Part shown: positions 6,145-29,787 of the stretch, one piece after another
How the letters are laid out: every line of letters begins with the position of its first letter
Numbering within the stretch: position 1 is the stretch's first letter
Virus record (IMG/VR): IMGVR_UViG_3300023281_000916
Span: 1 to 45,436 of that record
Reading direction: 5' to 3' (one strand)
Length of the DNA: 45,436 bases
Origin: a virus
The notes under the pieces: generated by a model
The model's database searches: none
Told to the model about the DNA's origin: nothing
Seen by the model: only the letters and a program-made list of their open reading frames with translations
Position numbers and translations under genes: made by a program

Positions 6145-6417
6145 ATGACAGACATACACATCACAGCGCACCGCAACTCTATCAAGGTCTCATCAGGACG
6201 ATACTTCGTCTTACTCAACCTACACATTTGGTCAACAGCTACAATGATTCAATACCGTTGGGAAGTAGACACCGACCACGGAGTACCAAACATACAATGC
6301 GAAGACTTAGAAGACGCATACGAAACAGCACTCGCTCACCTTTACATCATGCAGTCGCAAGCATGGGCAAACCCACAACCAACCATACCAACAAATGTCC
6401 CAAATAAAAATCTCTGA
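6145..6417 (+). CDS. Small hypothetical protein
   Basis: A 90-residue protein of unknown family. The N-terminus has alternating strands (TDIHITAHRNSIKVSSGRYFVLLNLHIWS). Next come a short acidic stretch (CEDLEDAYETALAHLYIMQ) that should be helical and a Pro-rich tail. Start ATG 6145 is the first after the hairpin. The stop overlaps the ParB-methyltransferase start by 23 bases, so the two may be coupled. A competing frame (6123-6407) gives a His/Arg/Pro-rich translation typical of a shadow. Confidence 0.65.
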   Translation: MTDIHITAHRNSIKVSSGRYFVLLNLHIWSTATMIQYRWEVDTDHGVPNIQCEDLEDAYETALAHLYIMQSQAWANPQPTIPTNVPNKNL

Positions 6418-7894
6418 TATTAAACGAGAAGACAGGGTTCGCGAAGACTACGGTGACGTAGCTAAGCTCGCGGAGTCTATCCTCTCACTCGGACTAATCC
6501 AACCTATCTGCATCAACCAAGACAACACCTTGGTCGCAGGAGGTCGTCGCACCCGAGCATTACTCTCCTTAGTGAACTCTCAGAACTTTCAAGTTACTGA
6601 CGACTGTCACCCTGACATCATATCCTTCATTCAATCCGGCGGTATCCTAATCGAAGGCAAGCACTTCACCCGCATGACAACCCGCGACATCTCTCACCTC
6701 TCCATGCTTGAACTCGAAGAGAATGTCCGTCGCAAACAATTCGCATGGCAAGAGACCTGTCTCGCCGTCCGTAAAGTACACAACACCAAGCAAGGCGAAG
6801 CCTCACGAGCACAAGAAAAGTGGTGGACATCACACACCGGTGAACTCCTCGGCATGTCTAACGGTAACGTAGGCTACTGTCTTCTCATCGCACAGCACAT
6901 AGCTGACGGTGACGAAGAAGTAACCAACGCCGAAGGTCTAATGGACGCACTCCGTATCATCACTCAACGCAAGCATGACCTAGCTGAAGACCTTGTTGCC
7001 AAACGCACGATGGCACAAATCAAAGCAGGCACGTCACCCTACGCAGCCTCGGCCACCAACAAAGAAGCTACCGCAGGTGTCGACGACGTACTCTCCTCAT
7101 GGAACGAAGAGCAAGGTGATGACGCGTTAGCCCAACCCAACTCCCTACCAAACAACCCATCCTCTATCCCTGTCTCTCACATGATACGCCACGGCTCATT
7201 CCTTGACCTACCATGGTCACCCGAATCTGTTGACCATATCATAACCGACCCACCCTACGGTATAGACATGGCCAACCTCGATCAAGGTAACACCGGCATG
7301 GACGACATCTCACGCATAGCTGAAACCCACGATGTGCAATCCAACCTCGACAACTTCAACGCATGGCTCCAACAATGTCACTACATCCTACGCGACAAAG
7401 GGTTCTGCGTATGGTTCTGCGACGCTGTTCACTGGAATCACCTTCGTCTCCTCGCAGAAGACATCGGATTCAAGTCACAACGCTGGCCTCTAGTCTGGAT
7501 CAAAGCCCACTCCTGTATGAACCAAGCCGCCTCCTATAACTTCACTAAAAACATCGAGGTCGCACTCGTACTCCGAAAGGGAGTCGCAACTCTCACCGAA
7601 CCTCAATCAACCTGCTACCACATGGCATCATCTGACCCAGAACGACGTCTATTCTCAGGCCACCCGTTTGTCAAACCAACCTCACTCTGGCAGTGGATTG
7701 CCCAAGCCGTCGCTCTCAAGAACCAAACCATATGTGACCCGTTCTCTGGTGTCGGCTCCATGTCACGAGCACTACTCCACGACGGATATAACATATGCAA
7801 CTGCGAGATAGACTCCACTCACTACAACCAACAATTCAACATGATCTGCGAATTTTACCGTGAAAAGTACGGCGCGGACGTAACCTTCTCTTAA
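6395..7894 (+). CDS. ParB-like domain fused to DNA methyltransferase
   Basis: A 499-residue two-domain protein. The N-terminal ParB/sulfiredoxin-like domain shows VAGGRRTRALLSL (residues 47-59) and LELEENVRRKQFAWQE (about 105-120). The C-terminal SAM-dependent methyltransferase has motif IV DPPYG (285-289) before motif I DPFSGVGS (448-455), the beta-class order. HPFVKP (423-428) precedes motif I as in these enzymes. DPPY predicts N6-adenine or N4-cytosine methylation; the target site is not readable. No restriction gene is nearby. The likely role is therefore self-modification against host restriction, or marking DNA for replication or packaging. Confidence 0.9.
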   Translation: MSQIKISDIKREDRVREDYGDVAKLAESILSLGLIQPICINQDNTLVAGGRRTRALLSLVNSQNFQVTDDCHPDIISFIQSGGILIEGKHFTRMTTRDISHLSMLELEENVRRKQFAWQETCLAVRKVHNTKQGEASRAQEKWWTSHTGELLGMSNGNVGYCLLIAQHIADGDEEVTNAEGLMDALRIITQRKHDLAEDLVAKRTMAQIKAGTSPYAASATNKEATAGVDDVLSSWNEEQGDDALAQPNSLPNNPSSIPVSHMIRHGSFLDLPWSPESVDHIITDPPYGIDMANLDQGNTGMDDISRIAETHDVQSNLDNFNAWLQQCHYILRDKGFCVWFCDAVHWNHLRLLAEDIGFKSQRWPLVWIKAHSCMNQAASYNFTKNIEVALVLRKGVATLTEPQSTCYHMASSDPERRLFSGHPFVKPTSLWQWIAQAVALKNQTICDPFSGVGSMSRALLHDGYNICNCEIDSTHYNQQFNMICEFYREKYGADVTFS

Positions 7895-8140
7895 ATGTTT
7901 CAAATGATATTCACCTACCGCGGTCACCAAGTCACGATCCAAGACCTAATCACAGACGACACTCGTACTTGGATATACCACATCATCAACTCAAACAAAA
8001 CTGTACTCCCACCACCACCACGCGGAGCCTACGCACTCGACGCAAAACAAATAGCTAAACGTCACATTGACAAACTCATCAGAACAAACCAATCAATCGC
8101 CACCATCCGTGGTCAACACATGCACCACAAAAATCTATAA
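7895..8140 (+). CDS. Small hypothetical protein
   Basis: An 81-residue basic protein that begins immediately after the methyltransferase stop (0 bases between). It has a short beta-like start (MIFTYRGHQVTIQDL), a Pro stretch PPPPRGAYALDAKQIAKRHIDKLI and a His-rich end. The region AYALDAKQIAKRHIDKLI is typical of small phage proteins that take a helical form, but no family can be named. Its position suggests translational coupling with the methyltransferase. Confidence 0.7.
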   Translation: MFQMIFTYRGHQVTIQDLITDDTRTWIYHIINSNKTVLPPPPRGAYALDAKQIAKRHIDKLIRTNQSIATIRGQHMHHKNL

Positions 8141-8144
8141 CTCA

Positions 8145-8157
8145 TACAACAATTGGA
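8145..8157. promoter_or_regulatory. Dyad element TACAA-CAA-TTGGA (site 3)
   Basis: One mismatch to the dyad consensus. It is followed by ACTAACCT and ATG 8166, matching site 2 in the right half, the ACTAAC extension and the first codons of the gene. Confidence 0.5.
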
Positions 8158-8165
8158 ACTAACCT

Positions 8166-8345
8166 ATGCCAGAACAAGAAATACCACGTGCCTATCTAGG
8201 TGATGGTGCTTACGTAGAAGATCAAGGTCACTGCATCTGCATCTATACCGACAACGGAGTTACTCGTCATAACGAAGTGTTCCTAGAATCCAACGAAATC
8301 CAAGCCCTTCAACGCTTCCTCTTAACCCACAACCTAATCAAGTAA
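8166..8345 (+). CDS. Small conserved-type phage protein (YLGDGAYV motif)
   Basis: A 59-residue protein that begins MPEQEIPRAYLGDGAYVEDQ. It continues with GHCICIYTDNGV and a C-terminal helix ending RFLLTHNLIK. The order YLGDG-x-Y, a strand ending in T-x-NG, then NEVFLES and a hydrophobic helix is common in small hypothetical proteins of many phages. Its function is not known to me. The start is fixed by the dyad element ahead of it, and the stop overlaps the next ATG (TAATG). Confidence 0.75.
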   Translation: MPEQEIPRAYLGDGAYVEDQGHCICIYTDNGVTRHNEVFLESNEIQALQRFLLTHNLIK

Positions 8346-8761
8346 TGCCCGAAGAAGACATCTATAACATACTCATCACAGGACTTCGCGACATGGCTGA
8401 TCGTCTTGACCGAGTTCGTTCCTCTAACGCACCTCAGAACCAACGCAGACCCGAGCGTCCCGTAGTCGACGACGAGACTGCCCTTGCGCATAACGAGATT
8501 CGCAGACAATTAAAGCTCGTCTTCGAACAACACGGTGATAACCTCAACGACTTCGAGCGTGGGTTCTGCCGTGATGTACCTAAGCATGAAGGTGGTATGA
8601 CAGAAAAACAACTCCATTGTGCTGGTAAGATTCTGTCCAACTACGCAGTAGACACAGATGACAGGGAACACGCCTTCGACCGCTCAGCCGTTGGACAAGA
8701 CCAAAGCGGTGTCCCCTGTGACTTACGTGGCGAACCAACCGACGACGATATAACATTCTGA
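8345..8761 (+). CDS. Hypothetical protein upstream of DNA polymerase
   Basis: A 138-residue acidic protein not recognised. It begins with a helix (YNILITGLRDMADRLDRV), then a polar linker. A central part follows (QLKLVFEQHGDNLNDFERGFCRDVPKHEGGMTEKQLHCAGKIL), with spaced Cys residues but no clear zinc motif. The C-terminus is acidic. The segment EKQLHCAGKIL resembles the end of several phage proteins of unknown role beside polymerases. Overlaps of TAATG at the start and TGATG at the stop couple it to its neighbours, including the polymerase. Confidence 0.75.
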   Translation: MPEEDIYNILITGLRDMADRLDRVRSSNAPQNQRRPERPVVDDETALAHNEIRRQLKLVFEQHGDNLNDFERGFCRDVPKHEGGMTEKQLHCAGKILSNYAVDTDDREHAFDRSAVGQDQSGVPCDLRGEPTDDDITF

Positions 8762-11289
8762 TGACACCTGTACCCAACCGCTTCCCTGACTTAGCTCCCT
8801 CCGCTATTCGTGTTGCCGTAATCGGTGAAGCACCAAGCTCGGACGATGTCATTCAACGGGAACCCTTCGCCTCGACCTCTGGTCGTTTCCTCCGAGGGGT
8901 TATGTCCTCCATCGGACTCAACCCAAAACAATGCTTCTTCGGTAACGTATGTCAGATACAACCACCCGGCGGTTCACTCTTCCGCTTTAAGTGGGACGGA
9001 CCTGAAATACAATCTGGCTTAGCCCAACTCACTCGCGACCTCAATGAATTTAAACCCAACCTTGTTCTATGTCTGGGTCAGTATGCTCTTCGTGCTGCTG
9101 GCGTGTCTCACTCTATCATGTTTTACAGAGGCACCTTGTTCACCTCGTCTTGGGGTTATAAAGCACTGGGCTGTCTACATCCTGCTTATTGCCTACGCGA
9201 TTACAGCAGTACTCCTTTGTTTAAATTTGACATTCGTCGTGCTAAACTAGAAGGCGCAACACCCGACCTCATACTCCCCAACCGCACCATCATCACTGAC
9301 CTTGACCTCGGAGTCCAGATCGCCTGCCTTGACAAAGTCCAGCAACGTAAAGACGCCCTAGCTATTGACCTCGAAGGGTACCCTGATGAAAAAGGTGTAA
9401 CCTGCATATCCTTATTCCCCGAACCTCTTTGGGGATTCACACTACCATTCCGTCGGCAAGACGGTACCAACTGCTGGGAAGAACACGAAGAACTTATCCT
9501 CTGGCAAAAACTATGTTCGATCCTTGCCGACCCAACCATACCAAAGATATGTCAAAATGCTATGTACGAACTGTTTGTATTCGCATTTCGTCACTCGATT
9601 CTAATACGTGGTGTAATTGGGGACACTATGCTGGCACACTGGGAGATGTTTCACGAATTAAAAAAGTCGCTTGGTTTACAAACCTCCATATACACAAAGG
9701 AGCCTTACTACAAAGACGAACGAACCAAATCTGGAGACACAACACACTGGGAATACTGTGGCAAAGACTCAGCCGTCACCACCGAGATACATACCCACGT
9801 CGTCAACGGCTTACGCGCCGACCCACTATCTTACGCTCACTACCAGTTCAACATGGAAATCCTAAAGCCCTACCTATATATGTCTCTCCGAGGTTGTCTA
9901 TTCGACCGCGCCGAGTGGCAGAAACAAGTAGACGACACGTGGTCAAAGATTAAAATACTACAACTCGAAGTCGACGAACTCGCCGGAGCACCTTTCAACG
10001 TTAAATCTGTTGACCACAAGAAAGCGTTCCTTTATGGCACCCTCAAAGACGCCCCAGCTAAGTCCACTCCTAACTACGAGAAGTGCCTTAAACTACACGC
10101 TAACTCACTCAAACTCCCACCACAATATGAAGGTCGAGGCGCAACCCGTAAGATCACAACCAACGAAGAAGCCTTACTCAAACTCTACGACAAGACTAAA
10201 ATACCTATCCTTAAACTCTTATTGGAACTCGTCCGACTCCGTACCTACATGTCTGACCTTGGCAAGCTCATCCCGTTTGAGGACAATCGAATCAGATCGG
10301 TCTATAACCCTGTCGGCACTGTCACAGGCAGATGCAACTCGCGTGATACAAACGTACCCGAGCGTGTCCAACTACCTAAGATCGAACACAACACAGAAGG
10401 TGTACCCATACTAAACTGGAAATCGTCTATCGAGATGTTAGGTACTAACTTACAGAACCAACAGAAGGACGTTCGTAATTTATTCATCTCCGACCCTGAC
10501 TACGACTTCTACCAATACGACCTCTCCGGCGCGGACGCTTGGACAGTTGCTTGTGACCTAGCTGCACTCGGACACGACAAGATGTTAGAACATCTTAAGC
10601 TCGGTATCAAACCATCCAAGAACATCATCCTAATGCAACGTTACGGTGCCTCTGTGTGTCGCTCGTGGTCAAATCAAGACTGGCTTGACAAACAATCCGA
10701 GGTTGCTAAGGACGACAAGATGTACACCTGCGCAAAAGCCTGCCAGCACGGTACCAATTACGGCATGAAGCCTGCGCTGTTACGCGAGACAATCTTCAAA
10801 CGGTCACGCGGATCAATCGACATCTCTGTCCCAACCGCTGCACTTCTACAACAACTATACGATGAGCTATACCAAGTATCCGTCCGCACAAGATGGATTG
10901 AGAAAACTGTTCGGGAGACAAAACAACTCCGATGCGCTTCGGGTGCACTTAGACGTTTCACCTCGATCCGCCCTGCTCGTGAGCTTGACCAAGCTACGTT
11001 ACGGGAAGCGTTATCGCACGAACCTCAGCACAATACCACTTATGCAACTAACCTCGCCTTGCATAATATGTATTACGACCCTGAGAACCGTACGCCGTCG
11101 GGTTCGCTCATCATTCAACCGCTCGTCATGATTCACGACGCACTTGCAGGTCAATGGCCAACAGCCCGTCGCGAGTGGGCACAGCAAAAGATGCAAACCT
11201 ATTTCGACAACCCATTAACAATACACGGTATCACACTCACCATTCCGGTTGAAGGTGGATGCGGTTTAAACTGGAAGGATACAGAATGA
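8761..11289 (+). CDS. UDG-like domain fused to family A DNA polymerase
   Basis: An 842-residue replicative polymerase. Residues about 15-180 resemble the uracil-DNA-glycosylase superfamily: GEAPSSDD (22-29), TSGRFLRGVM (39-48), LVLCLGQYALRAAG (101-114) and CLHPAY (138-143). The N-terminal Fe-S Cys pair of family 4 enzymes is absent. The 3'-5' exonuclease shows Asp203-X-Glu205, Asn266-X3-Glu270 (normally Asp) and Tyr332-X3-Asp336. The polymerase shows motif A DLSGADAW (Asp587), O-helix KACQHGTNYG (Lys659, His663, Tyr667) and motif C IHDALAG (His792, Asp793, Ala794). His663 occupies the E. coli Phe762 position and Ala794 replaces the Glu of HDE. The glycosylase-like domain may detect uracil or only aid DNA binding. 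Confidence 0.9.
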   Translation: MTPVPNRFPDLAPSAIRVAVIGEAPSSDDVIQREPFASTSGRFLRGVMSSIGLNPKQCFFGNVCQIQPPGGSLFRFKWDGPEIQSGLAQLTRDLNEFKPNLVLCLGQYALRAAGVSHSIMFYRGTLFTSSWGYKALGCLHPAYCLRDYSSTPLFKFDIRRAKLEGATPDLILPNRTIITDLDLGVQIACLDKVQQRKDALAIDLEGYPDEKGVTCISLFPEPLWGFTLPFRRQDGTNCWEEHEELILWQKLCSILADPTIPKICQNAMYELFVFAFRHSILIRGVIGDTMLAHWEMFHELKKSLGLQTSIYTKEPYYKDERTKSGDTTHWEYCGKDSAVTTEIHTHVVNGLRADPLSYAHYQFNMEILKPYLYMSLRGCLFDRAEWQKQVDDTWSKIKILQLEVDELAGAPFNVKSVDHKKAFLYGTLKDAPAKSTPNYEKCLKLHANSLKLPPQYEGRGATRKITTNEEALLKLYDKTKIPILKLLLELVRLRTYMSDLGKLIPFEDNRIRSVYNPVGTVTGRCNSRDTNVPERVQLPKIEHNTEGVPILNWKSSIEMLGTNLQNQQKDVRNLFISDPDYDFYQYDLSGADAWTVACDLAALGHDKMLEHLKLGIKPSKNIILMQRYGASVCRSWSNQDWLDKQSEVAKDDKMYTCAKACQHGTNYGMKPALLRETIFKRSRGSIDISVPTAALLQQLYDELYQVSVRTRWIEKTVRETKQLRCASGALRRFTSIRPARELDQATLREALSHEPQHNTTYATNLALHNMYYDPENRTPSGSLIIQPLVMIHDALAGQWPTARREWAQQKMQTYFDNPLTIHGITLTIPVEGGCGLNWKDTE

Positions 11290-11867
11290 CAGACGAGGAA
11301 TTATTCGAGGCGTGGTTTCGGAAGAAATACGGCAGAGACCCACATGCCTTTATGGACGTAGACATACGCATTGCCTACCTATCTGGCTTATCGCAGGGCA
11401 GGTCTGAGGGCGTGAGCGTGGAGGATGTGATTGAGGAATGCTTCTACCGAATTAAGATGCGACTGATAGTAATCAACACCTTCCCTTGGGGTGATAAGCT
11501 AATGCCGAATGCTAAGTGCGTTAAGGTTATTCAGGTTAGCAATATGCTTGACGAGGTTAAGGAACACGTAAAAGAACTCACCGTACTCAAGACCCTGTTG
11601 TTTGATAACCTCGAAGTATCTGAAGAGACCAAGGCAAAGATTAAAGCCCGACTCGACTACGAGGAAGAGACAAAGGATTTAAACGAGGGTGAGTATTTGA
11701 GCAAGACCCTGCCGAAACCAGCAACGGAGGAGGAATACGTTAATCAGGTGTTAGAAGCATCTAAATACGACAGGGAGTTGAGAGAGGGCGGCCCTGAGGC
11801 TTACCCTGTTATGGACTTCCCTTGTGCGCCCTTACCCGCTGAACCCGAACAGGAGGTCGGAGGATGA
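11286..11867 (+). CDS. Accessory phage protein in imported cassette (gene 1)
   Basis: A 193-residue protein starting MTDEELFEAWFRKKYGRDP. An in-frame ATG at 11259 exists, but 11286 gives the usual ATGA overlap with the polymerase stop and the normal N-terminus for this type of protein. The opening (FEAWF...YLSGLSQGR) resembles accessory proteins common in phages of Proteobacteria. A coiled-coil-like middle follows (DEVKEHVKELTVLKTLLFDNLEVSEETKAKIKARL), and the end is EPEQEVGG. Codon choice is G-rich, unlike the C-rich neighbours. It marks the left edge of an inserted block. Function is unknown. Confidence 0.75.
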   Translation: MTDEELFEAWFRKKYGRDPHAFMDVDIRIAYLSGLSQGRSEGVSVEDVIEECFYRIKMRLIVINTFPWGDKLMPNAKCVKVIQVSNMLDEVKEHVKELTVLKTLLFDNLEVSEETKAKIKARLDYEEETKDLNEGEYLSKTLPKPATEEEYVNQVLEASKYDRELREGGPEAYPVMDFPCAPLPAEPEQEVGG

Positions 11868-12100
11868 AGATTAACTGGACGAAGCCATACCTGAAGGAGC
11901 CTAAAAACGGAGCAGGGTGGAGGAATCATTGCTTGAGGGCTGATAGCCCCTCGGGAGCAAGGTGGCACATCCATAAAACAATATATGGATACAATCTACA
12001 GCGTGGCTTATTCGATATATGCACAGTAAGAACACAGAAGGCAGCTAAACTAATAGCCCAAACAATCCAAGATAACCCCGAACAGAAAGGCGGAGGATGA
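11864..12100 (+). CDS. Accessory protein in imported cassette (gene 2)
   Basis: A 78-residue basic protein with WRNHCLRADSPSGARWHIHKTIYGYNL and a C-terminal helix (QKAAKLIAQTIQD) ending NPEQKGGG. It looks like a small nucleic-acid-binding or structural fold, but no family is named. Unlike almost every gene outside this block it has a genuine Shine-Dalgarno: AGGAGG at 11851-11856, seven bases before the ATG, plus GGAGG touching the ATG. It overlaps gene 1 by ATGA. Confidence 0.75.
   Translation: MKINWTKPYLKEPKNGAGWRNHCLRADSPSGARWHIHKTIYGYNLQRGLFDICTVRTQKAAKLIAQTIQDNPEQKGGG
12073..12090 (+). repeat. Gene-end/RBS linker repeat, copy 1
   Basis: TAACCCCGAACAGAAAGG, identical to 12288-12305. Both copies encode the peptide NPEQKG at a gene end and supply the AAAGG ribosome-binding sequence of the next gene. 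A diverged copy (AACCCGAACAGGAGG) is at 11842-11856. Confidence 0.85.
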
Positions 12101-12351
12101 GTAAGTCAGCCATATCAATCAAACCGTTTAAGTTCGGAGAGAATGGCCTGTTTGTGTTTTGGAGGGCTGTATCTGACACGGACGAATTACGCCTAAGGCA
12201 CTTAGGCATGATAAACTTTCTGAGCGAGGATCAGTTAAAAGACTGTGAGATGCTGGCACAGGCTCATGGGTGGGAAATCTGTAAAACTAACCCCGAACAG
12301 AAAGGACACCAATGCCAGACCTTGACGACTACGACTGCGAAGAAGTTATAA
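12097..12351 (+). CDS. Accessory protein in imported cassette (gene 3), altered C-terminus
   Basis: An 84-residue protein, unknown family. An IKPFKFGENGLFVFWRAV strand region is followed by a charged helix and GWEICKTNPEQKG. By analogy with genes 1 and 2 the original protein should have ended just after NPEQKG. Instead it reads on for 14 odd residues (HQCQTLTTTTAKKL) in the wrong frame of the following native gene, overlapping it by 40 bases. That indicates a recombination junction near 12305. The start has GGAGG adjacent to ATG, with AAAGG six bases upstream. Confidence 0.7.
   Translation: MSKSAISIKPFKFGENGLFVFWRAVSDTDELRLRHLGMINFLSEDQLKDCEMLAQAHGWEICKTNPEQKGHQCQTLTTTTAKKL
12288..12305 (+). 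repeat. Gene-end/RBS linker repeat, copy 2 (cassette right edge)
   Basis: Identical 18 nt to 12073-12090. Downstream the sequence returns to C/A-rich native composition. AAAGG lies six bases before ATG 12312. Confidence 0.85.
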
Positions 12352-12488
12352 ACTACCTCGAAGACCACCAACCCTACGAACTAACCGAATGGGAATGTGA
12401 GTTCGTCGAATCAAACCTCGGGCGAACAGAATTCTCTGACGCACAAAAAGAAGTAATCAATCGACTTGTAAAGAAATTTAAATTATGA
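12312..12488 (+). CDS. Small acidic hypothetical protein
   Basis: A 58-residue very acidic protein (MPDLDDYDCEEVINYLEDHQ..., ending VINRLVKKFKL). It is mostly helical by composition and has no recognised family. Codons are C-rich like the main early arm, in contrast to the three genes before it. Its 5' end overlaps the read-through tail of gene 3 by 40 bases. The stop overlaps the next start (ATGA). The acidity could fit a DNA-mimic or a regulator of a basic partner, but this is only composition. Confidence 0.7.
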   Translation: MPDLDDYDCEEVINYLEDHQPYELTEWECEFVESNLGRTEFSDAQKEVINRLVKKFKL

Positions 12489-12688
12489 CCTACACCGTAA
12501 CACGTACACCCGCCACACCAGACTTCGCGCCTGACCTCAAAGTAGGTGACACCCTAACCCTCTACGAGGCCGCACAATATTTTGAACTCAACGTACACAC
12601 CCTTCGCATTGAAGGTTACATGCAGAAGTACTGTACTCACCAAGGACACACACTCCTTTGTTCCCTCCACAACCAACCAACACTATGA
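12485..12688 (+). CDS. Small protein, possible MerR/excisionase-like helix-turn-helix
   Basis: A 67-residue protein. Residues about 25-50 read LTLYEAAQYFELNVHTLRIEGYM. This resembles the L-x-EAA-x-x-L-x-V-x-x-x-T-L-R pattern of MerR/excisionase winged-helix DNA-binding domains, although the wing and second half are weak. It could be a small transcription regulator of the early operon and a candidate reader of the dyad elements, which is speculation. ATGA overlaps on both sides show tight coupling. Confidence 0.6.
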   Translation: MTYTVTRTPATPDFAPDLKVGDTLTLYEAAQYFELNVHTLRIEGYMQKYCTHQGHTLLCSLHNQPTL

Positions 12689-13092
12689 TAGATAAATTCG
12701 CACTCAAAGACAACCAAGGTAACCCGCTTGACCTTGGCTCCTCCAACATCTGGGTCATTATGGACGGTCGAAAGACCACTGTTCTAATCGACCCCATGAC
12801 TGGCTCAGCCTACCACTCAACAAACAAAAAACTCGCTGAACTAATAGCTAAAGACTGTCGGGAACGTCTCGAACTCAAAGGCACATTCGTTCTCCCCCTA
12901 TACGAAGCCATACGTATCATAGCAGCCAACGAAGGTGTAGACCTCAAGCCCCCATACACCACAAAGAACATCATCGACCAACTCAAACACGGCTTCGAGA
13001 CCGGCGCACATGAAGACAAAGCCCGTTGTCGCAAACTTAAAAATAAAGCATCAATCACTAACTCATCACCGAAAGACAGGTACTCATTATGA
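12685..13092 (+). CDS. Hypothetical protein
   Basis: A 135-residue protein starting MIDKFALKDN at an ATGA overlap. An upstream TTG at 12658 is in frame but would overlap the previous gene further. The N-terminal half is beta-like (SNIWVIMDGRKTTVLIDPMTGSAYHS). The centre is helical (NKKLAELIAKDCRERLEL) and the C-terminus is basic and polar. No motif of a known enzyme family is visible. It sits in a coupled block with the MazG-like pyrophosphatase and the helicase-like ATPase, so a replication-support role is possible. Confidence 0.7.
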   Translation: MIDKFALKDNQGNPLDLGSSNIWVIMDGRKTTVLIDPMTGSAYHSTNKKLAELIAKDCRERLELKGTFVLPLYEAIRIIAANEGVDLKPPYTTKNIIDQLKHGFETGAHEDKARCRKLKNKASITNSSPKDRYSL

Positions 13093-13541
13093 AAAAACAA
13101 ATTCAAGACGTGCGCACATTCATGCAGGCATGTGACCAACCCACCCCCGATGAACCTATCCAAAAGTTGGATGAGTCTATTGCTCTCCTTCGTATCAAAC
13201 TACTAGTCGAGGAGGTCGAAGAACTCGCACAGGCTTTCGGGTTTGACATGAATATCTACATGGACACTCAAAGTTATGACCCAGAATTGTACCACGAAGT
13301 CGAAGTCATTGACGCCCTAGCCGACATAACTTACGTACTGTACGGAGCAGCAGTTACATGCGGACATCAAGACGTACTACCCGAAGCATTCAAGCGGGTT
13401 CAATTTTCCAACATGACCAAGGTAGTCAATGGCAAGTGTGTCAAAGACTCAACCGGTAAGGTTATGAAACCCGCGTCATACATCCCACCTAACCTTGATA
13501 ACATATTCACCGAATACGAACAAGGGGAATTTAATCTATAA
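13089..13541 (+). CDS. MazG-like nucleotide pyrophosphohydrolase
   Basis: A 150-residue all-alpha NTP-pyrophosphatase. The metal-binding signature is present: KLLVEEVEELAQAFG (about residues 37-51), then EVEVIDALADITYVLYGA (about 76-93). This matches the E-x-x-E-E...E/D-x-x-D arrangement of the MazG/HisE superfamily. The C-terminal segment EAFKRVQFSNMTKVVNGK...PASYIPPNL is characteristic of phage members. Such enzymes hydrolyse (d)NTPs to monophosphates and adjust nucleotide pools or lower (p)ppGpp stress signals. It is coupled by ATGA upstream and TAATG downstream. Confidence 0.85.
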   Translation: MKKQIQDVRTFMQACDQPTPDEPIQKLDESIALLRIKLLVEEVEELAQAFGFDMNIYMDTQSYDPELYHEVEVIDALADITYVLYGAAVTCGHQDVLPEAFKRVQFSNMTKVVNGKCVKDSTGKVMKPASYIPPNLDNIFTEYEQGEFNL

Positions 13542-14737
13542 TGTCATTCATCAAACACTATGCAGAATTCGTTAAAGAAAACGAAGCTCACCCTACGTAC
13601 CACCTCTTTAGTGGACTGGTCGCGCTATCATCAATCGTATCACGTCGTGTCTGGATCGAGCAGGGTTACTTCGACGTCTTTCCTAACCTCTACGTTACGC
13701 TGGTTGGCCCTCCGGGTAACCGCAAGACTACCGCAATGTCTGTTTGCAAGAAGCTACTCCGTGAACTCGGTGCAGACCTTGTCCCTATGTCGGCCGAATG
13801 TCAAACAAAGGAAAGCGTTGTTAAACAAATGGCAGAGAACGAACGATCATTTACCACGGATGTCTCCGCAGAGCCAACGCTGTACACTCCTCTTACCGTA
13901 TGCGTTACTGAGCTTAGCCATTTTCTTGGTGCTAACTCAGCTCATATGGTAGACTTCTTAACCAACGTCTATGATGAACCTGTATATGAAAACCGCACGA
14001 AGAACAAAGGGACGGAGGTTATTATCGGTCCTTATCTTACTCTCTTGGGTTGCACTACACCTGCTTGGATCACTGCTCGTATGCGGGACGATGTTATTAC
14101 TGGAGGCTTCTCTCGTCGCTGCCTCTTCGTATATGAAACTGGTAAAGGAAAGCGTGTTGCCCGTCCAGAAATTACTAAAGAGATGTACGCGTCGTGGAAA
14201 GAATTAGTTAAAATATCACACAAACTTCTGGCCGTTAAAGGTAAGTTCAAATGGACTCCAGACGCCCTAGCATTCTACGATCACTGGTACGAAACACTAG
14301 ACATACCCTCCAACGACCTGACTGCATCGTTCTATGAATCCAAACATATTCAACTATTAAAAATCAGTATGCTAATTGCAGTTAGCGAAACTGGTGTACT
14401 CGTTCTCGACACACCACACCTCAAGATGGGTTTGGAGATGTTGCAACTCGTCGAAGACAATCTCGAAAAGGTCTTCCAAGGTATAGGTCGTAATGAACTA
14501 AACGCCCTAGCTTCTAAAGCCGTGGAGATTCTTGACCGAGCACCCAACAACATGCTCCCCGAAAAGTTTATGAAGAAGGAGTTATTCCCACACGGTAACA
14601 TGGCAGAGATACTCCAAGTCATGTTGCATCTCGAACAAACAGACAAAATCAAGAAGGTACAAATTGGTGGCGAAGACGGTGACCCTACTGCTACCAAACG
14701 TTCCTTCTATAAACTAATAGGAAAGGACGGTAAATGA
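13541..14737 (+). CDS. DUF3987-type helicase/primase ATPase
   Basis: A 398-residue P-loop ATPase. Walker A is GPPGNRKTT (56-64). Walker B-like PLTVCVTELSHFL lies near residues 117-129. VYDEPVYENRTKNKG follows, and an arginine-finger-like GGFSRRCLFVYE lies near 188-199. The N-terminal FSGLVALSSIVSRRVWI region and overall order match phage DUF3987 (YfjI-like) proteins, which are placed among replicative helicase/primase-associated ATPases. No DnaB- or T7 gp4-type helicase is present elsewhere, so this is the best candidate for the replication helicase. The C-terminal 100 residues resemble a winged-helix DNA-binding tail. Confidence 0.75.
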   Translation: MSFIKHYAEFVKENEAHPTYHLFSGLVALSSIVSRRVWIEQGYFDVFPNLYVTLVGPPGNRKTTAMSVCKKLLRELGADLVPMSAECQTKESVVKQMAENERSFTTDVSAEPTLYTPLTVCVTELSHFLGANSAHMVDFLTNVYDEPVYENRTKNKGTEVIIGPYLTLLGCTTPAWITARMRDDVITGGFSRRCLFVYETGKGKRVARPEITKEMYASWKELVKISHKLLAVKGKFKWTPDALAFYDHWYETLDIPSNDLTASFYESKHIQLLKISMLIAVSETGVLVLDTPHLKMGLEMLQLVEDNLEKVFQGIGRNELNALASKAVEILDRAPNNMLPEKFMKKELFPHGNMAEILQVMLHLEQTDKIKKVQIGGEDGDPTATKRSFYKLIGKDGK

Positions 14738-15813: not shown

Positions 15814-18800
15814 TTACAGTGATAGTCTGGTGCTACCCCCCAACATCTGCTGTGCCATACGCCTCGCTTGTGCCCTCGGCATGTTCGGATTTTGACTTCG
15901 TATCTGATCCACTAACGAATCTATCATAAATGTCTGAGGACTCGGAAGAGAGAATTGTCCAGTCAACTGAGTCGTCACCTGATCCTTCAACTGTCTCCTG
16001 TCTGTCTCTGTACCAAACGGAACATTAGGAGTTGATGCCGCAATCTGTTCAGCTCTCGGCTCAGCAGCACGGCTCACATTACCTAACGGGTCTTGTGGAA
16101 TTACTTGCTGCACCGCAATGTTTGCCACAGAGTCAGCAACTGAATCCCTATCTTCCGTTGGGTTCTTCGCGAGATACTCACTCAACAAAGCCTGAGCTAC
16201 CGGAACATTTCCAGCGTTGAAATTCGTCGCAACCTCGGCAAGAGCCTGCCTACGTTCTTCGCCAACCAACTCTTCAACTCGTCGCATAGCCTGTTGCTGT
16301 TCCCTGACTTCAGTCAATCGCTTCGGTCTGAACCCTGCGACATGAGCAATCTGTTCCGTCATGCTAGGCTTAAACAACAGCTCACCTTTATTATCCCGCA
16401 TCGCACCACCGTCAGCAATTTGCTGTAGCGCACCCCGCATCCACTGAGGTGCAGCCGCTTCAGCACCTCCGAGTAGGTCACCTTGCACAGCTTTCTGCAC
16501 ACCTTCATAAATATTCTCAGCGGTACCCAAGGTCGCACCTGCTATACCCTTGATGTTCCAACCATCGTATGGGTTCGTACCCAACACTCCGCCACCAAGA
16601 CCCAGTCTCGAATCGAAACTAATCCCAGGAATCTGGTGATCCGTTGCCCTACTTGCAGCACCACTGAAGGCCGTGGGCACACCAGACATAGCCAAGTCAC
16701 TCAAGAAGAACCCAAGCTCTTCGTCGTCACCAGCCAAGTCTTGTATACCTTCCTTAGCTACTTGTTCCAGCTCAATCCCGAACATGTTTTCAATAATTCG
16801 CAAAGCCGCACCAGCAAAAGGCATTCCCATACTACCGGCTAAGCCCATCTGTACCATCATCTGCGTAGCAAAAGCTTTACGTGCTGCTGATTTGTCTGGC
16901 AGACTTAACCTATCACTACTGTCAATAGCTTCTTTAGCAAACCGACCCATCTGACCCAGCGTAGCAAACGTGAAATTCTGTAGAGTAAAGATCACACCCA
17001 GCGCACCCTGCACACCCGGCCCAGCTTTGTCAAAGAAGAATGGTCTGTTTGCCCTACCACCTGAGAAGCTGGTTGTTGCCACACCTTGTTTAGCAAACGA
17101 ATACAGTGCCTCGCCTTTTAACCCGCGTGACTTACCCAGTTCCCAATTAGTCATAAAGCCTAGCTTTGCACCAGTACCACTAGCCATTGAGTATATCTTC
17201 TTAGCCGTGTGCATGTACCAATGCGCCGAGTTCTTTGTTAGTGATATCGGATCAAGCCCGGGTTTACCCTTTGACATCCGACTCTGCAACAAAGAGTCAA
17301 TCTGCTTAGGATTAACTAACTCATCTAAAGTACCAGACGTCAATAACCCTTCATCCATCGCACGATTAAAATGTCTTGTCAACTCTTCATCTTTAAAGTC
17401 TAACTGCTTACCTTTCTTTCTACTACCATAAGCCTCGCCCAACGCTGTCGCACCTCTTTTCATCATACCCATTGATTGTCCAATACTCCCAGTCTGCCTA
17501 ATCAAATGTGGCAACAACGTAAGCACTGGCTGTGTCGTTTCAATCAACGCGGAGGATATATTAAATCCTAACCAGTAAGCAAAGATACCATTCTTAAACG
17601 CACTATACTCCTTGCTCTGTTGCTGTGTCATATTCTGTGCATACCCAGCCGCAAGATTTTGTATATCTTTATGCTGTGCTAACTTTGCATCACTGACCAA
17701 CAACTGGTTCATCTTCTTAGCACGACTCAACGTAACTGAATGAGCTACATTAACAACTTGATTTAAGCTCGCTTGCCACATGTCTACGTAATTTCGACCC
17801 GCTTTAAACTTCCGTTGTTTCTCGAACGACCTCTGCGTCCTCTTAGCAAACTCTTCAGCAACCTTCACCCCAGGTGAATATTTAAACTCGCTGAACTTAG
17901 CAAAGTCCTCAGCGTCTAACTGCGACTTCAGTTCTTTCCTAGCCGAATCGAACACCGCGTTTTCCATCTCAATAAACATATTCAACACACGTTCATCCAT
18001 GTAATGATTGTTATTGTCTACAACAGATACTCTTGACTTGTCAACAATCTCAATGTCCTTACGCTCCAGACCCTCAGTCTCCATGACTCGTTGCAATTGA
18101 TGACCTAAGTCCTTCTTATCAATAGCCGAATGCGTTGCTGTTTCCATAACCGGCATACCATCTTTTGTAACTGGTTGTCCGTCACTATCCAACTTACGCA
18201 CCTGCCATTTAATCAAGAACTGTCCATGCCTCTGTTCAGGTAAATAATACGGACGTGCTTTATAAAACTCAACCATCTTAATCTGTGAGATACTTAACCT
18301 CGCCGCTGTTCTTAACGCAGCATTGAGGTCTAAGTTACCCAACTCCGGTCTCGCTGCAAGTATATCCGCTTTCAACTGACCAGCAATAGCATCAACCTCT
18401 GGGTCAGTTAAAGCTGTTTGTTTAATCTTCACAATAGGCTGACCTGTCTTCTCATCAATTTCTTGTGTAGTTCTCATAGCCCTGACCAACCCTTCAGCCC
18501 TAGCAAACACCAAGTCACCCATCTCTATAAACTGACTCGTCTCCTCGCCCCGATTCCTCACCTGTAACATCTTCGACACTCCCAGCGCATGGTTACCTGC
18601 GGAATGGTTAATCAACACATCCCTAGTAATCCTAGCACTCGCTAAGCTCGCATCTAACAATGCCATCACTTGCTCCTTCTTGGTGTCATCCAACTTTTGG
18701 AACGAACTAATCTTATCAAGGGAACCTTGTACCTCTGAAGGGTGTTGTTTCGCACCAAGTTCTTTCTGCATGACTCGGGCTACGTCACCGAACGCATCTT

Positions 18801-21800
18801 TAGCGTTAGCATCGTTGGACACCAACACCATTGCATCGGCTATGATTCTTTGTCCGGGCTTTAGTCTCTCCCGTCCGACTTCAGTAACCAATACCATGTT
18901 ACCTTTTTTGTCTCTCGTCATAAATGGCCCCATCTGTTGTCTGATATACTTACCAGATACAGATTCGATGTCTAGGCTGATACCAAAGATACGTCGCAAG
19001 ACTGGAAGCTCGTCACCAAACTCGTCAGCTAGCTGGGACATATTTCCAAACCACTGTCTGATCTTACCAATCCGGTGTTCCTTGCCGAGACCTAGTCCTT
19101 TCGTGTCAGCCGTTGGGTCTATCCAATGGGCTACCTTGTCAGAGAATAGTTTTAGATGTCTTAACTGATCGCCTTCAAGATCACTTGGTTTAATAGGCAT
19201 ACCCTTACGCTGTTCGAATAGGTGTGGGTTGGTATAGGTTGCCATCTGCACCATGTCTTTGCGAGCCTTCAACGCCTCGGGACTGACCTCTGCTAGTGTC
19301 TGTAGGTCACCAAGGAACGATCTCAACTCAGCTCCAAACTTAGCCTTGCCCCGACCAGCGTGATATGTTTGAATAGCGTCAGCAGCATCCATCACATCTC
19401 TAAAGAACCCGCGTTCAAAGTTTTGTACGTCTTCAGGATGTATATGCTCGACGTATTGCCGAAGCTCCTTGCTGAACACTCTCCTCTGTGCCTTACTCCT
19501 GGTCGCTATGCCGACTGACATCAACGAGTTGACTTGGGCTAAGAACTCTTCTGGTGTGTCTCGCGCAACTGAATTAATAATACTCTTCATGGTTGGATCC
19601 ATTTGTGTTCCTTTGAATAGAAACTTCTTGGGAACAACTACTCGCGTCAACGTATCCAACACTTCAATCTTCTCAGCTTCCGTCATCTGCTCGACCCATT
19701 GCTCAGCTTTACGTAGTGATTCGGCTCTCATTCTGTCTGGGCCGGTTAACTTGTCAGCGTCCTTGAGAGCGAAGAAGGCAGCGTGACTCATCTCATGGCC
19801 GAGTATCATCATCTTCATAAACCTGTCCATTGCGGGACGATCTGAAATCTGTTTAGCAATCATAGCGACCAATGGCCCACGGTACTTGGAGCCTGGGTTA
19901 TTAGACCCTGGAGAGAAGAGACCCAAATGTCCAAGGACTTCGTTCGTCACCTTGTCTTTGTATATGTTAGCATCCAACTCACCGATACGAAGATCATCTA
20001 GCTTGTTGTACATACCGATGATGTTCATTGCACCACGCTTGTAGTTCTCTTTAACCGCTGGTTCCAAACCTAGTGTATCAAAATATTTGTCTAAGAAAGC
20101 GTTGACATCGTCGACTGACTTAGCCTTCAAGTCTGTACCGGATATCTCTCTGTTAATACCAGCAAGCTCTCTAGGTGTCAGACCCCTGTCTCCTGCTTCG
20201 TTTAGTATCCTCACAATCCTATCCAACGGTTCGCCTTTGAGGTTACTCAGATTCTTGTCACTACCATTTAAGATAGCTTCTAAGTCTTTCAGCGCAACCT
20301 TCATCTTTGCACCGTGTGCCTTTTGGAAACCAGATAAGTTACCATCCGGGTCACCTATAGCTTGAAGAAAAATACGTTTGCCCTCATCGGTCAGCTCGAT
20401 ACGACCTTTTACCACAATAGTATCTACGCTCAAAGCCCGTATCGTCGCAACCAGATTGGTCAACTTCTTTTCGAACACCTTACCCTTAGCCTTGGTTACA
20501 TTTCGTAACATGCTGGTTAACATACCAACGTCCTCCCCTAACTCTCTCAACAACGTCTTCCTATTGTCCCTAGTCTGAGGCTGACTATCATCAGGCTGTT
20601 GCTCAACTTTTGTTTTAACATCAGGGGCTGGTGCGTCAGGTATTTCACCGGTCACAGTTTGGCCAATTTCTGTACGCTGTTTGGTATCTTCTTTATCTTT
20701 ACGATCTAAATCTCTCTTGCGTATCATTTCGGCTAAGCGATTGGCGTCACGTTTTTGGCCTCTTTGCACACCTTGCATATAACGAATGATCTTGTTGTCT
20801 AAATGAATTTGATCAGAGTCCTCACGAACCTTCTTCATCGCATCAACTACAACGAGTTGCTCTTCTTGGTTAAGGTGCTGCATAGCCTGACCAACCGCTT
20901 CAATCCTCTCAGCTTCGTTCAATCGTACCTTACCCTCACTTGCTTCAAGCTTCGCCGTAGTTCGACTGTAAACATTCTTGATCTGTTGTACCAACCGAGC
21001 CGTAGCTACATCTGCGTCAGCATATCTATCTGCATAAAACTCGAACCTTGTTTCCAAATCCCTTGCTGTAATCCTATCGGGATCAATACCATTTAGGCCC
21101 AGTGCGTCAACAATTTCTGGACTGGTTTCACGTAGGTCTTTTAACGCACCGTTGACAACCGTATTCAACTTAACAAACTTAGCTGATCCTTCTACCTTAG
21201 AGGTTTGTACAGCTTCGGAGGTTGGTCTTACGGGAGTGGTTACTACCTCGGGGTCTGTTTTAATTTCAGGCGCGGGTGTCTTGACCTCTGGTTCTGGAGT
21301 AATAACCCCTTCACCCTCAACCGGAGGCTGTTGTAACCTAGCTGTTTCCTCAGCACGTTTTGTAGCCAACCTACTAGTATCCGGCTCTGGTGGTAACAAC
21401 GCAAGCGGATCACCTTCAGTCCTCAACTCCGGTGGTAACTGACTAACAACCTCAACGTCAGCATCTTTAACCTCAACCGGGCCTGTCAATAAATCAAATT
21501 GTTTCCCTCTCGCAGTAGCAGCTTCGTCAGCGGCGGGCAACGCTAGACCCTCTCTAGTCTCCTGTGGCTTTTCGTTAGCCTTGGCTTCAGCCGCTTGTGC
21601 AGCTTCGAACTCTCTCAACCTACCAACCTGAATCCTCTCAGTATCTGAGAATGTAACTTGTCCAGTATCTGGATCACGCTCACCCTTAAAGAAGTTTCTA
21701 AGTTTCCTTGCTTCTTTCGGATTCAAGAAACGTCCTGTAGCAGCAACATTACCAACCGCATTAGCAAACAATAGTTCCTTACTAAATGGATCACCACCCT

Positions 21801-22515
21801 GAGACACTTGTTCTACAATATCCAGACCAAACAAAGCAGTTTCTTCACCCAGCTGTTCGCCTGCTTTCTGCAACGCTCTCGTACCCAACGCATCGGTAAA
21901 CCCCATCCTCACTGCTTTACCGCCCTTACCGATTAGTTTACCAGCCTCTTTATCTAATACACCACCCAACCGATTGCTCAAGAAGTTAGCCGCTCCTCTC
22001 CTGCCTAACCCAGCAACCGGGCCTGTGAGTCCAGTAGCAAGACCACTAACAGCTGCGGCAAATGGATCATCAGTGCGGGTGAAAGTATCTGCTGCGGCCG
22101 AACCAGTACCTGTGGCCAACAGTCCCAGACCTGCTACCGTTGGCAACACACCACCACTACCAACAGTCAAGCCAAGTCCTACACCAGCAGCACCGACCTC
22201 AGCAAAGCCCCTAGGTAGACCCTTACCGATATCTCGTGCGGCCTGTCGATCCAAACCAAAGGTTGCCCCGAAAGGCTCGACCAGATCGGCCGCAAACTCA
22301 TCAACCCCTGTGGCTTCAAATGCTTTATCGACTTGAACGCTAGCCCGCTTAAACACACTATCATTGAAGCCCATCGTGAAGTCACGAGTAGGATCAGTTG
22401 CTTGAAGTTTACGGGAGAAATCCCCGATACTCTGTTCGGCAATTCCTGGGAAATACCTAGCAAGGTCTTCTTTCTCGTCAGAGATTTCCCTAAATGATAG
22501 TTGTTTAAAAGCCAT
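15814..22515 (-). CDS. Giant internal virion (ejected) protein with HEXXH metalloprotease motif
   Basis: A 2,233-residue protein, the last gene of the late operon. Residues about 96-140 are a Gly/Ala-rich hydrophobic segment. Residues about 280-650 are polar and Pro/Glu-rich. A zincin-type motif GHEMSHAAF places His907-Glu908 and His911 as metal and catalytic residues. The C-terminal 600 residues have hydrophobic patches (near 1642, 1840 and 1890) and a Gln/Arg-rich helical end. Such giant multidomain proteins (polyvalent/PLxRFG-like) in podoviruses are ejected with the DNA to breach the cell envelope or act on host targets. I saw no RNA-polymerase motifs, so a virion RNA polymerase is unlikely. 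Confidence 0.8.
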   Translation of the reverse strand: MAFKQLSFREISDEKEDLARYFPGIAEQSIGDFSRKLQATDPTRDFTMGFNDSVFKRASVQVDKAFEATGVDEFAADLVEPFGATFGLDRQAARDIGKGLPRGFAEVGAAGVGLGLTVGSGGVLPTVAGLGLLATGTGSAAADTFTRTDDPFAAAVSGLATGLTGPVAGLGRRGAANFLSNRLGGVLDKEAGKLIGKGGKAVRMGFTDALGTRALQKAGEQLGEETALFGLDIVEQVSQGGDPFSKELLFANAVGNVAATGRFLNPKEARKLRNFFKGERDPDTGQVTFSDTERIQVGRLREFEAAQAAEAKANEKPQETREGLALPAADEAATARGKQFDLLTGPVEVKDADVEVVSQLPPELRTEGDPLALLPPEPDTSRLATKRAEETARLQQPPVEGEGVITPEPEVKTPAPEIKTDPEVVTTPVRPTSEAVQTSKVEGSAKFVKLNTVVNGALKDLRETSPEIVDALGLNGIDPDRITARDLETRFEFYADRYADADVATARLVQQIKNVYSRTTAKLEASEGKVRLNEAERIEAVGQAMQHLNQEEQLVVVDAMKKVREDSDQIHLDNKIIRYMQGVQRGQKRDANRLAEMIRKRDLDRKDKEDTKQRTEIGQTVTGEIPDAPAPDVKTKVEQQPDDSQPQTRDNRKTLLRELGEDVGMLTSMLRNVTKAKGKVFEKKLTNLVATIRALSVDTIVVKGRIELTDEGKRIFLQAIGDPDGNLSGFQKAHGAKMKVALKDLEAILNGSDKNLSNLKGEPLDRIVRILNEAGDRGLTPRELAGINREISGTDLKAKSVDDVNAFLDKYFDTLGLEPAVKENYKRGAMNIIGMYNKLDDLRIGELDANIYKDKVTNEVLGHLGLFSPGSNNPGSKYRGPLVAMIAKQISDRPAMDRFMKMMILGHEMSHAAFFALKDADKLTGPDRMRAESLRKAEQWVEQMTEAEKIEVLDTLTRVVVPKKFLFKGTQMDPTMKSIINSVARDTPEEFLAQVNSLMSVGIATRSKAQRRVFSKELRQYVEHIHPEDVQNFERGFFRDVMDAADAIQTYHAGRGKAKFGAELRSFLGDLQTLAEVSPEALKARKDMVQMATYTNPHLFEQRKGMPIKPSDLEGDQLRHLKLFSDKVAHWIDPTADTKGLGLGKEHRIGKIRQWFGNMSQLADEFGDELPVLRRIFGISLDIESVSGKYIRQQMGPFMTRDKKGNMVLVTEVGRERLKPGQRIIADAMVLVSNDANAKDAFGDVARVMQKELGAKQHPSEVQGSLDKISSFQKLDDTKKEQVMALLDASLASARITRDVLINHSAGNHALGVSKMLQVRNRGEETSQFIEMGDLVFARAEGLVRAMRTTQEIDEKTGQPIVKIKQTALTDPEVDAIAGQLKADILAARPELGNLDLNAALRTAARLSISQIKMVEFYKARPYYLPEQRHGQFLIKWQVRKLDSDGQPVTKDGMPVMETATHSAIDKKDLGHQLQRVMETEGLERKDIEIVDKSRVSVVDNNNHYMDERVLNMFIEMENAVFDSARKELKSQLDAEDFAKFSEFKYSPGVKVAEEFAKRTQRSFEKQRKFKAGRNYVDMWQASLNQVVNVAHSVTLSRAKKMNQLLVSDAKLAQHKDIQNLAAGYAQNMTQQQSKEYSAFKNGIFAYWLGFNISSALIETTQPVLTLLPHLIRQTGSIGQSMGMMKRGATALGEAYGSRKKGKQLDFKDEELTRHFNRAMDEGLLTSGTLDELVNPKQIDSLLQSRMSKGKPGLDPISLTKNSAHWYMHTAKKIYSMASGTGAKLGFMTNWELGKSRGLKGEALYSFAKQGVATTSFSGGRANRPFFFDKAGPGVQGALGVIFTLQNFTFATLGQMGRFAKEAIDSSDRLSLPDKSAARKAFATQMMVQMGLAGSMGMPFAGAALRIIENMFGIELEQVAKEGIQDLAGDDEELGFFLSDLAMSGVPTAFSGAASRATDHQIPGISFDSRLGLGGGVLGTNPYDGWNIKGIAGATLGTAENIYEGVQKAVQGDLLGGAEAAAPQWMRGALQQIADGGAMRDNKGELLFKPSMTEQIAHVAGFRPKRLTEVREQQQAMRRVEELVGEERRQALAEVATNFNAGNVPVAQALLSEYLAKNPTEDRDSVADSVANIAVQQVIPQDPLGNVSRAAEPRAEQIAASTPNVPFGTETDRRQLKDQVTTQLTGQFSLPSPQTFMIDSLVDQIRSQNPNMPRAQARRMAQQMLGGSTRLSL

Positions 22516-29469: not shown

Positions 29470-29787
29470 TTATTCCTTTCCGTATAGTTGTACACGAACA
29501 GTAGCAGTAATGTCTGCTGGTGTGTTTGTGCCTAGGTTGTATAACAATAGGTTGAGTCCATCATAAGATGGAGCAGCTAGGTAACGCTTATTGTCATTGC
29601 CAACAGCGTGACCTACCCGCGTGATCGACTTGAAGTCGAACAGTGTCGCAGGGATTTTGTTTGTTAAACCGCCTTGACCAGTTAAGGTCAAAACAGCCTG
29701 TACAAACTTGTCCCGATGCTTACCGGTCATATCACCAAGATACTTACGGTCTTCAATTGCGACAGCAGATGCAGCTAGGTCAGCCAT
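29470..29787 (-). CDS. Putative head decoration protein
   Basis: A 105-residue protein. An Ala-rich N-terminal helix (LAASAVAIEDRKYLG) leads to a beta-rich remainder (LFDFKSITRVGHAVGNDNKRYLAAPSYDGLNLLLYN, then ADITATVRVQLYG). It has no Cys. The gene is separated by one base from the major capsid gene and precedes the terminator, as is common for abundant head accessory (decoration) proteins. Assignment rests on position, size and beta content. Confidence 0.5.
   Translation of the reverse strand: MADLAASAVAIEDRKYLGDMTGKHRDKFVQAVLTLTGQGGLTNKIPATLFDFKSITRVGHAVGNDNKRYLAAPSYDGLNLLLYNLGTNTPADITATVRVQLYGKE

Follow-up and report, generated by a model that had tools for sequence, protein, structure and literature searches.

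Between the polymerase and primase-like genes of an uncultured phage lies a run of three small genes whose base composition departs from that of the surrounding DNA, raising the question of whether these genes were acquired from outside or are old residents of the genome. We addressed it in the virus record of 45,436 bases that contains them, referred to below as the window, in which the genes of the left arm run on the + strand and those of the right arm on the - strand. The three genes, designated A, B and C, are listed with their flanks and joints in Table 1.

Table 1. Position and features of the three-gene block, its joints and its flanking genes in the window.
Feature	Coordinates	Strand	Remarks
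Uracil-DNA glycosylase / family A DNA polymerase fusion (left flank)	8761..11289	+	Pfam UDG, 8.2e-16; DNA_pol_A, 5.2e-15
Gene A, 193 aa	11286..11867	+	Foreign composition; start overlaps the polymerase stop (ATGA)
Joint 1 (A/B), first, diverged repeat copy	11842..11867	+	Carries AGGAGGT
Gene B, 78 aa	11864..12100	+	Start overlaps the A stop (ATGA)
Joint 2 (B/C), second repeat copy	12073..12100	+	Carries AAGG
Gene C, 84 aa as ORF	12097..12351	+	Start overlaps the B stop (ATGA)
Joint 3, third repeat copy	12288..12305	+	Matches joint 2 exactly over 18 nt; native-type sequence follows
Right flank gene	12312..12488	+	Native-type codon skew; third-position skew -0.62
DUF3987 / primase-like gene	13541..14737	+	Pfam DUF3987, 4.9e-17; phrog_14296, 1.7e-46

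Gene layout and composition of the block

Four genes, starting at 12312, 12485, 12685 and 13089, separate C from the primase-like gene; the last of them is MazG-like (phrog_671, 3e-28). The primase-like gene is the next widely conserved gene after the polymerase and forms the far edge of a variable interval. Elsewhere in the window, a single ORF at 6395-7894 fuses a ParB_N-type domain to an N6/N4 DNA methyltransferase, positions 15814-22515 are occupied by a single minus-strand ORF of 2233 aa (similarly large minus-strand ORFs follow the primase in the relatives L001-L003), and a T run with a short GACC tandem repeat is located at 43538-43640. Most of the + strand is C-rich up to ~28 kb whichever direction the genes take, and it is near neutral further on, a pattern suggestive of asymmetric replication or transcription.

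Within the C-rich first 28 kb, positions 11286-12305 are the only island of positive skew. The best 1020-base + strand skew window in 1-28 kb starts at 11251 and reaches +0.169, the next best non-overlapping one is at -0.032, and the mean is -0.176 (sd 0.088). Likelihood segmentation of 8761-14737 returned a deviant stretch at 11247-12277 with 30.8 nats, compared with at most 8.4 nats for four other stretches. The initial annotation had described the + strand here as G-rich between C-rich flanks, citing 23 G to 8 C in 11401-11460; the count is correct, and skew windows and segmentation agree on the flanks. Its limits for the block, 11286-12305, lie close to the segmented stretch, although the third ORF stops at 12351 and not at 12305. 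When the window and 10 relatives, 11 C-skewed genomes in all, were compared, no G-rich segment was stronger than the block (33.1 nats; shuffled 95% level, 16.4). The composition shift is sharp at both edges, fourfold sites included, and the small neighbour genes in the same slot of the window have native skew. A G-rich stretch was also seen in the relative L012 at 9288-11035 (27.5 nats; shuffled 95% level, 19.3), beginning in the slot over a MazG-like gene; since it runs on through the primase, it is not a second island.

Codon use departs from that of both arms. The G:C ratio at fourfold sites is 25:33 in the block versus 171:715 in 23 left-arm genes (Fisher P = 7e-5), and the synonymous codon fit of the block under the left-arm model is below that of uniform use (-1.319 vs -1.128 per codon). 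Under the right-arm model the gain is -0.044 per codon versus +0.043 expected, and 0 of 2000 simulations gave so low a value; of 23 right-arm genes, 5 also fall below zero on this model, none of them reaching the value of the block. The codons favoured in the block are AGG, GGC, CAG and CTG. Codon use and skew are thus both of foreign type and un-ameliorated, in keeping with the importation that had been proposed.

Repeated joints and start signals

The joints of the block share a repeat, which is exact over 18 nt at 12073 and 12288 and 88% identical over 24 nt at 11844 and 12077. At 18 nt, no exact repeat in the block is longer; in 1000 dinucleotide shuffles the maximum was 14 nt. Simple repeats aside, no other repeat of at least 16 nt with copies 1066 bases apart or less occurs in the window. 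The repeat is missing from the polymerase/A joint. The C-terminal peptides EPEQEVGG, NPEQKGGG and NPEQKG of A, B and C, which had been noticed as related, are all present and are accounted for by the DNA repeat at the joints. A pattern scan of IMG/VR did not find the joint sequence before genes in other contigs; its one match, in L053, lies antisense in a structural-type gene, an unrelated coding context.

The joints also help to place the edges of the block. The polymerase ends in NWKDTE* in the window and in NWKYTE* in L012, and this match of the 3' ends puts the left joint at the polymerase stop codon. After joint 3, C lacks the stop present in its neighbours and reads on for 15 codons, so that its last ~15 codons lie within the sequence of the 12312 gene. 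The right edge of the insert is probably at joint 3, ~12305. Edges at ~11286 and 12305 thus follow from the lineage ending kept by the polymerase on the left and the turn to native sequence after joint 3. The joints may also have served as a recombination substrate, although the polymerase end does not carry the repeat.

Start signals were scored as an SD word of at least 4 bases located 3-11 nt before an ATG. By this rule the starts from A to 12312 carry AAGGA, AGGAGGT, AAGG and AAGGA, giving 4/4 when 12312 is counted. AGGAGGT and AAGG each lie 6 nt before their starts (B and C, respectively) and inside the repeat, while AAGGA lies 5 nt before the 12312 start, in joint 3. Native left-arm starts have an SD word in 3 of 19 cases, which equals the rate at random + strand positions (628/4000), and right-arm starts in 8 of 23, with a background of 954/4000. 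Inside the G-rich block, 428 of 994 positions satisfy the same rule, and position counts give by simple arithmetic a chance of ~0.03 for 4/4 SD starts; given so many passing positions, the four starts taken alone are weak evidence. The initial annotation had assigned GGAGG-type SD sequences to the starts at 11864 and 12097. GGAGG is present there, but with zero spacing it touches the ATG, too close for a usual SD, and the better-placed words are AGGAGGT and AAGG. Nor are such signals absent elsewhere, as had been stated: they are rare, yet AGGAGG precedes 29470-29787(-) and AAGGA precedes 14734.

The polymerase-primase interval and homologs of A, B and C

A primase profile search of IMG/VR yielded 42 loci. 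The order of polymerase and primase is kept in the relatives, and across 37 distinct relatives the two genes lie 15 to 2584 nt apart, distances that are slightly inflated since they were taken between tblastn ends. Counts of 37 leave out duplicates of another record (L013, L022, L031, L032, L038 and L040), loci with a cut polymerase (L041 and L044) and terminase-only loci (L048-L052). The contents of the interval differ among phages and include MazG-like, ligase-like, HNH-like and other small genes, where MazG comes from tool assignment and the ligase-like and HNH-like names were read from the sequences. The polymerase-primase interval is a variable cargo site in this phage lineage. The polymerase of the window is 37-45% identical to those of 13 aligned relatives, and a look for the host in GTDB gave four loci in metagenome-assembled genomes of taxa unlike each other, which point to no one host. 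In L002, at 7388-10423, two parts of the UDG-polymerase gene flank an ORF (8401-8796) that reads as HNH-endonuclease-like, an arrangement that an intron or homing insert would give.

An insertion between the polymerase and native early genes had been proposed, with an empty site expected in relatives. The polymerase side of this proposal stands, whereas the genes from 12312 onward are themselves variable cargo and native only in composition. Homologs of 12312 occur outside the interval in L042 and L043 and inside it in L007, and homologs of 12312, 12685 and 13089 are found elsewhere in some relatives. No empty site with both flanks was found among the relatives; L043 has an empty interval, with the primase directly after the polymerase, and in L007 a different gene fills the slot between the polymerase and the 12312 homolog. 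The idea that slot cargo generally deviates from its flanks was rejected: across relatives, cargo and flanks did not differ in skew (Wilcoxon P = 0.44 for 30 intervals, one of them from the window), and SD strength gave no difference either (P = 0.32 for 34 genomes).

Searches with A, B and C found no relative in 39 related records searched whole, nor in any related locus; one of the 39-record searches included the window as a positive control and two did not, and A was recovered in the window by a separate search. No usable match was obtained at loose limits in Pfam, PHROGs, NCBIfam or PADLOC, nor among solved structures, phages, plasmids (at the protein level with A) and IMG/VR peptide scans, the one row for B being a tblastn match at E=5 among phages. 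A peptide scan of GTDB genomes, performed for A only, gave no match; the peptide scans of IMG/VR and GTDB detect close relatives only. The three proteins have no similarity to any other ORF of the window, and AlphaFold2 models made without alignment, with a mean pLDDT of 42.1 for A and 47.7 for B, were of too low quality for use. In the collections searched, A, B and C thus have no detected relative, and whole-phage relatives carrying the same genes in native codon use, which would speak against importation, were looked for and not found.

Origin and expression of the block

Taken together, the stretch from 11286 to ~12305 is most likely a recently acquired foreign piece of three genes, inserted in the cargo slot between polymerase and primase. 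Foreign codon use and skew, the lack of relatives in the lineage and the variable site all agree with the recent acquisition that the initial annotation had put forward. Its further suggestion of an SD-using phage lineage as donor gained no support: the searches turned up no donor, and G-rich DNA contains many SD-like words by chance. The word "recent" is drawn from composition, since the searches returned neither a donor nor a close relative without the block, the relatives being as distant in the polymerase as given above.

Orphan genes can look absent merely through fast evolution, which counts against acquisition, and A, B and C could be old residents that kept an odd codon use for function, such as strong coupled translation, and were lost or diverged elsewhere. 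All three proteins are orphans, the relatives are distant enough for fast-evolving homologs to be missed, and SD words stand at all four starts when 12312 is counted, all of which fits long residence. It leaves the abrupt composition change at the block edges and the native skew of small neighbours at the same site without explanation, and we regard it as unlikely. A move from the late (minus-strand) arm of this phage or of a relative, where coding strands are G-rich, followed by a turn of the block, would explain the skew, since third-position skew is positive in many coding strands of the right arm, where it ranges from 0.33 to -0.38, and A, B and C are nearer to the right-arm than to the left-arm codon model. 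However, their choice of AGG, GGC, CAG and CTG misfits the right-arm model to a degree reached in none of the simulations, and the lack of similarity to other window ORFs extends to that arm. The misfit to the right-arm model as well makes relocation from the late arm of this phage improbable, and the late-arm origin as a whole is one to which we give very little weight.

The joints invite a separate objection, that they are merely convergent ribosome-binding sites and not a common boundary sequence. Some likeness between any two joints follows from SD words and ATGA overlaps, and two successive joints in L047, picked out by eye when we asked whether inserts in relatives also duplicate the upstream gene end, score 12, which is within chance for many comparisons, so that this candidate was rejected. 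The repeat of the window, in contrast, is not confined to the SD word but continues 5' of it into the last part of the gene before, and joints 2 and 3 have 18 exact nt in common. In a comparison of joint pairs, limited to ATG starts next to another ORF end and including some chance ORFs, joints 1 and 2 score 17, against a maximum of 14 among ~19,500 between-phage pairs, and they are the sole pair scoring at least 14 among 4060 within-genome pairs (38 genomes: the 37 relatives and the window). Mere convergence is therefore very unlikely.

If the block was acquired, a single gain event probably brought A, B and C into the slot together. The three genes are most likely read with the polymerase operon; a consensus scan of 10900-12800 for sigma-70-type sites found no + strand promoter of this type, and no terminator was found there. 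The four-base ATGA stop/start overlaps at polymerase/A, A/B and B/C would couple translation, with the last codons of each upstream gene supplying the ribosome-binding word for the next. The three joints have in common a boundary sequence of 18-24 nt, in which the upstream gene ends and the SD is located. The right joint would have cut C inside this boundary sequence, so that the stop was lost and C now ends inside 12312. As a guess held with low confidence, the products of A, B and C might be small accessory proteins of early expression that act on the host.

Phage accessory cargo slots and morons combine conserved flanks with changing small genes of foreign composition, and the defining feature of a moron is its own promoter and terminator. 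The block resembles cargo slots in its conserved flanks, changing small genes and foreign composition; it is not a strict moron, as the scan detected neither a + strand promoter of sigma-70 type nor a terminator. A closer likeness in form is found in the mycobacteriophage Island3, whose genes 67 and 68 have a common 60 bp 3' end where Brujita has one copy, and for which recombination between the 3'-end repeats was proposed (PMC3029335). As there, a small orphan gene repeats the 3' end of the upstream gene at the DNA and protein level and stands between syntenic genes, near a site of gene gain or loss. The repeat of the window differs in being 18-24 nt instead of ~60 bp, in having three copies and in having a polymerase flank gene without the repeat; Island3 has in Brujita a near-identical genome with the single-copy state, whereas the 13 aligned relatives here are distant. 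In form, the block is of the Island3 type; its repeat is shorter, and there is no close relative to prove the direction.

A second parallel is offered by the Start Associated Sequences of Cluster K mycobacteriophages, which are repeated and contain an SD (PMC3203893). Like them, the joint repeat places an SD core a few bases before the starts of different non-structural genes. The Start Associated Sequences are many per genome and lineage-wide, whereas the joint repeat occurs three times in one block only, as two window matches at up to 3 mismatches plus one diverged copy, and not as many dispersed copies. From literature searches on repeated gene ends and SD-led acquired genes, no further precedent was drawn.

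Speculatively, and with rather low odds in our judgement, the repeat could be a reusable docking module, in which the end of a cargo gene carries both the ribosome-binding site of the next gene and a short stretch of homology for recombination. On the same slender odds, genes could be chained in line with translation intact, bringing SD-led genes into an SD-poor arm. If docking is true, short boundary sequences could be tested as a means by which translated genes are added in line. As an acquisition, the block is a clear and fairly ordinary case of phage gene exchange. It provides a gene gain with sharp bounds in a phage lineage that is uncultured, both edges being placed to a few tens of bases at worst, and it identifies the interval between polymerase and primase as a cargo slot in a group of phages with the UDG-polymerase fusion.
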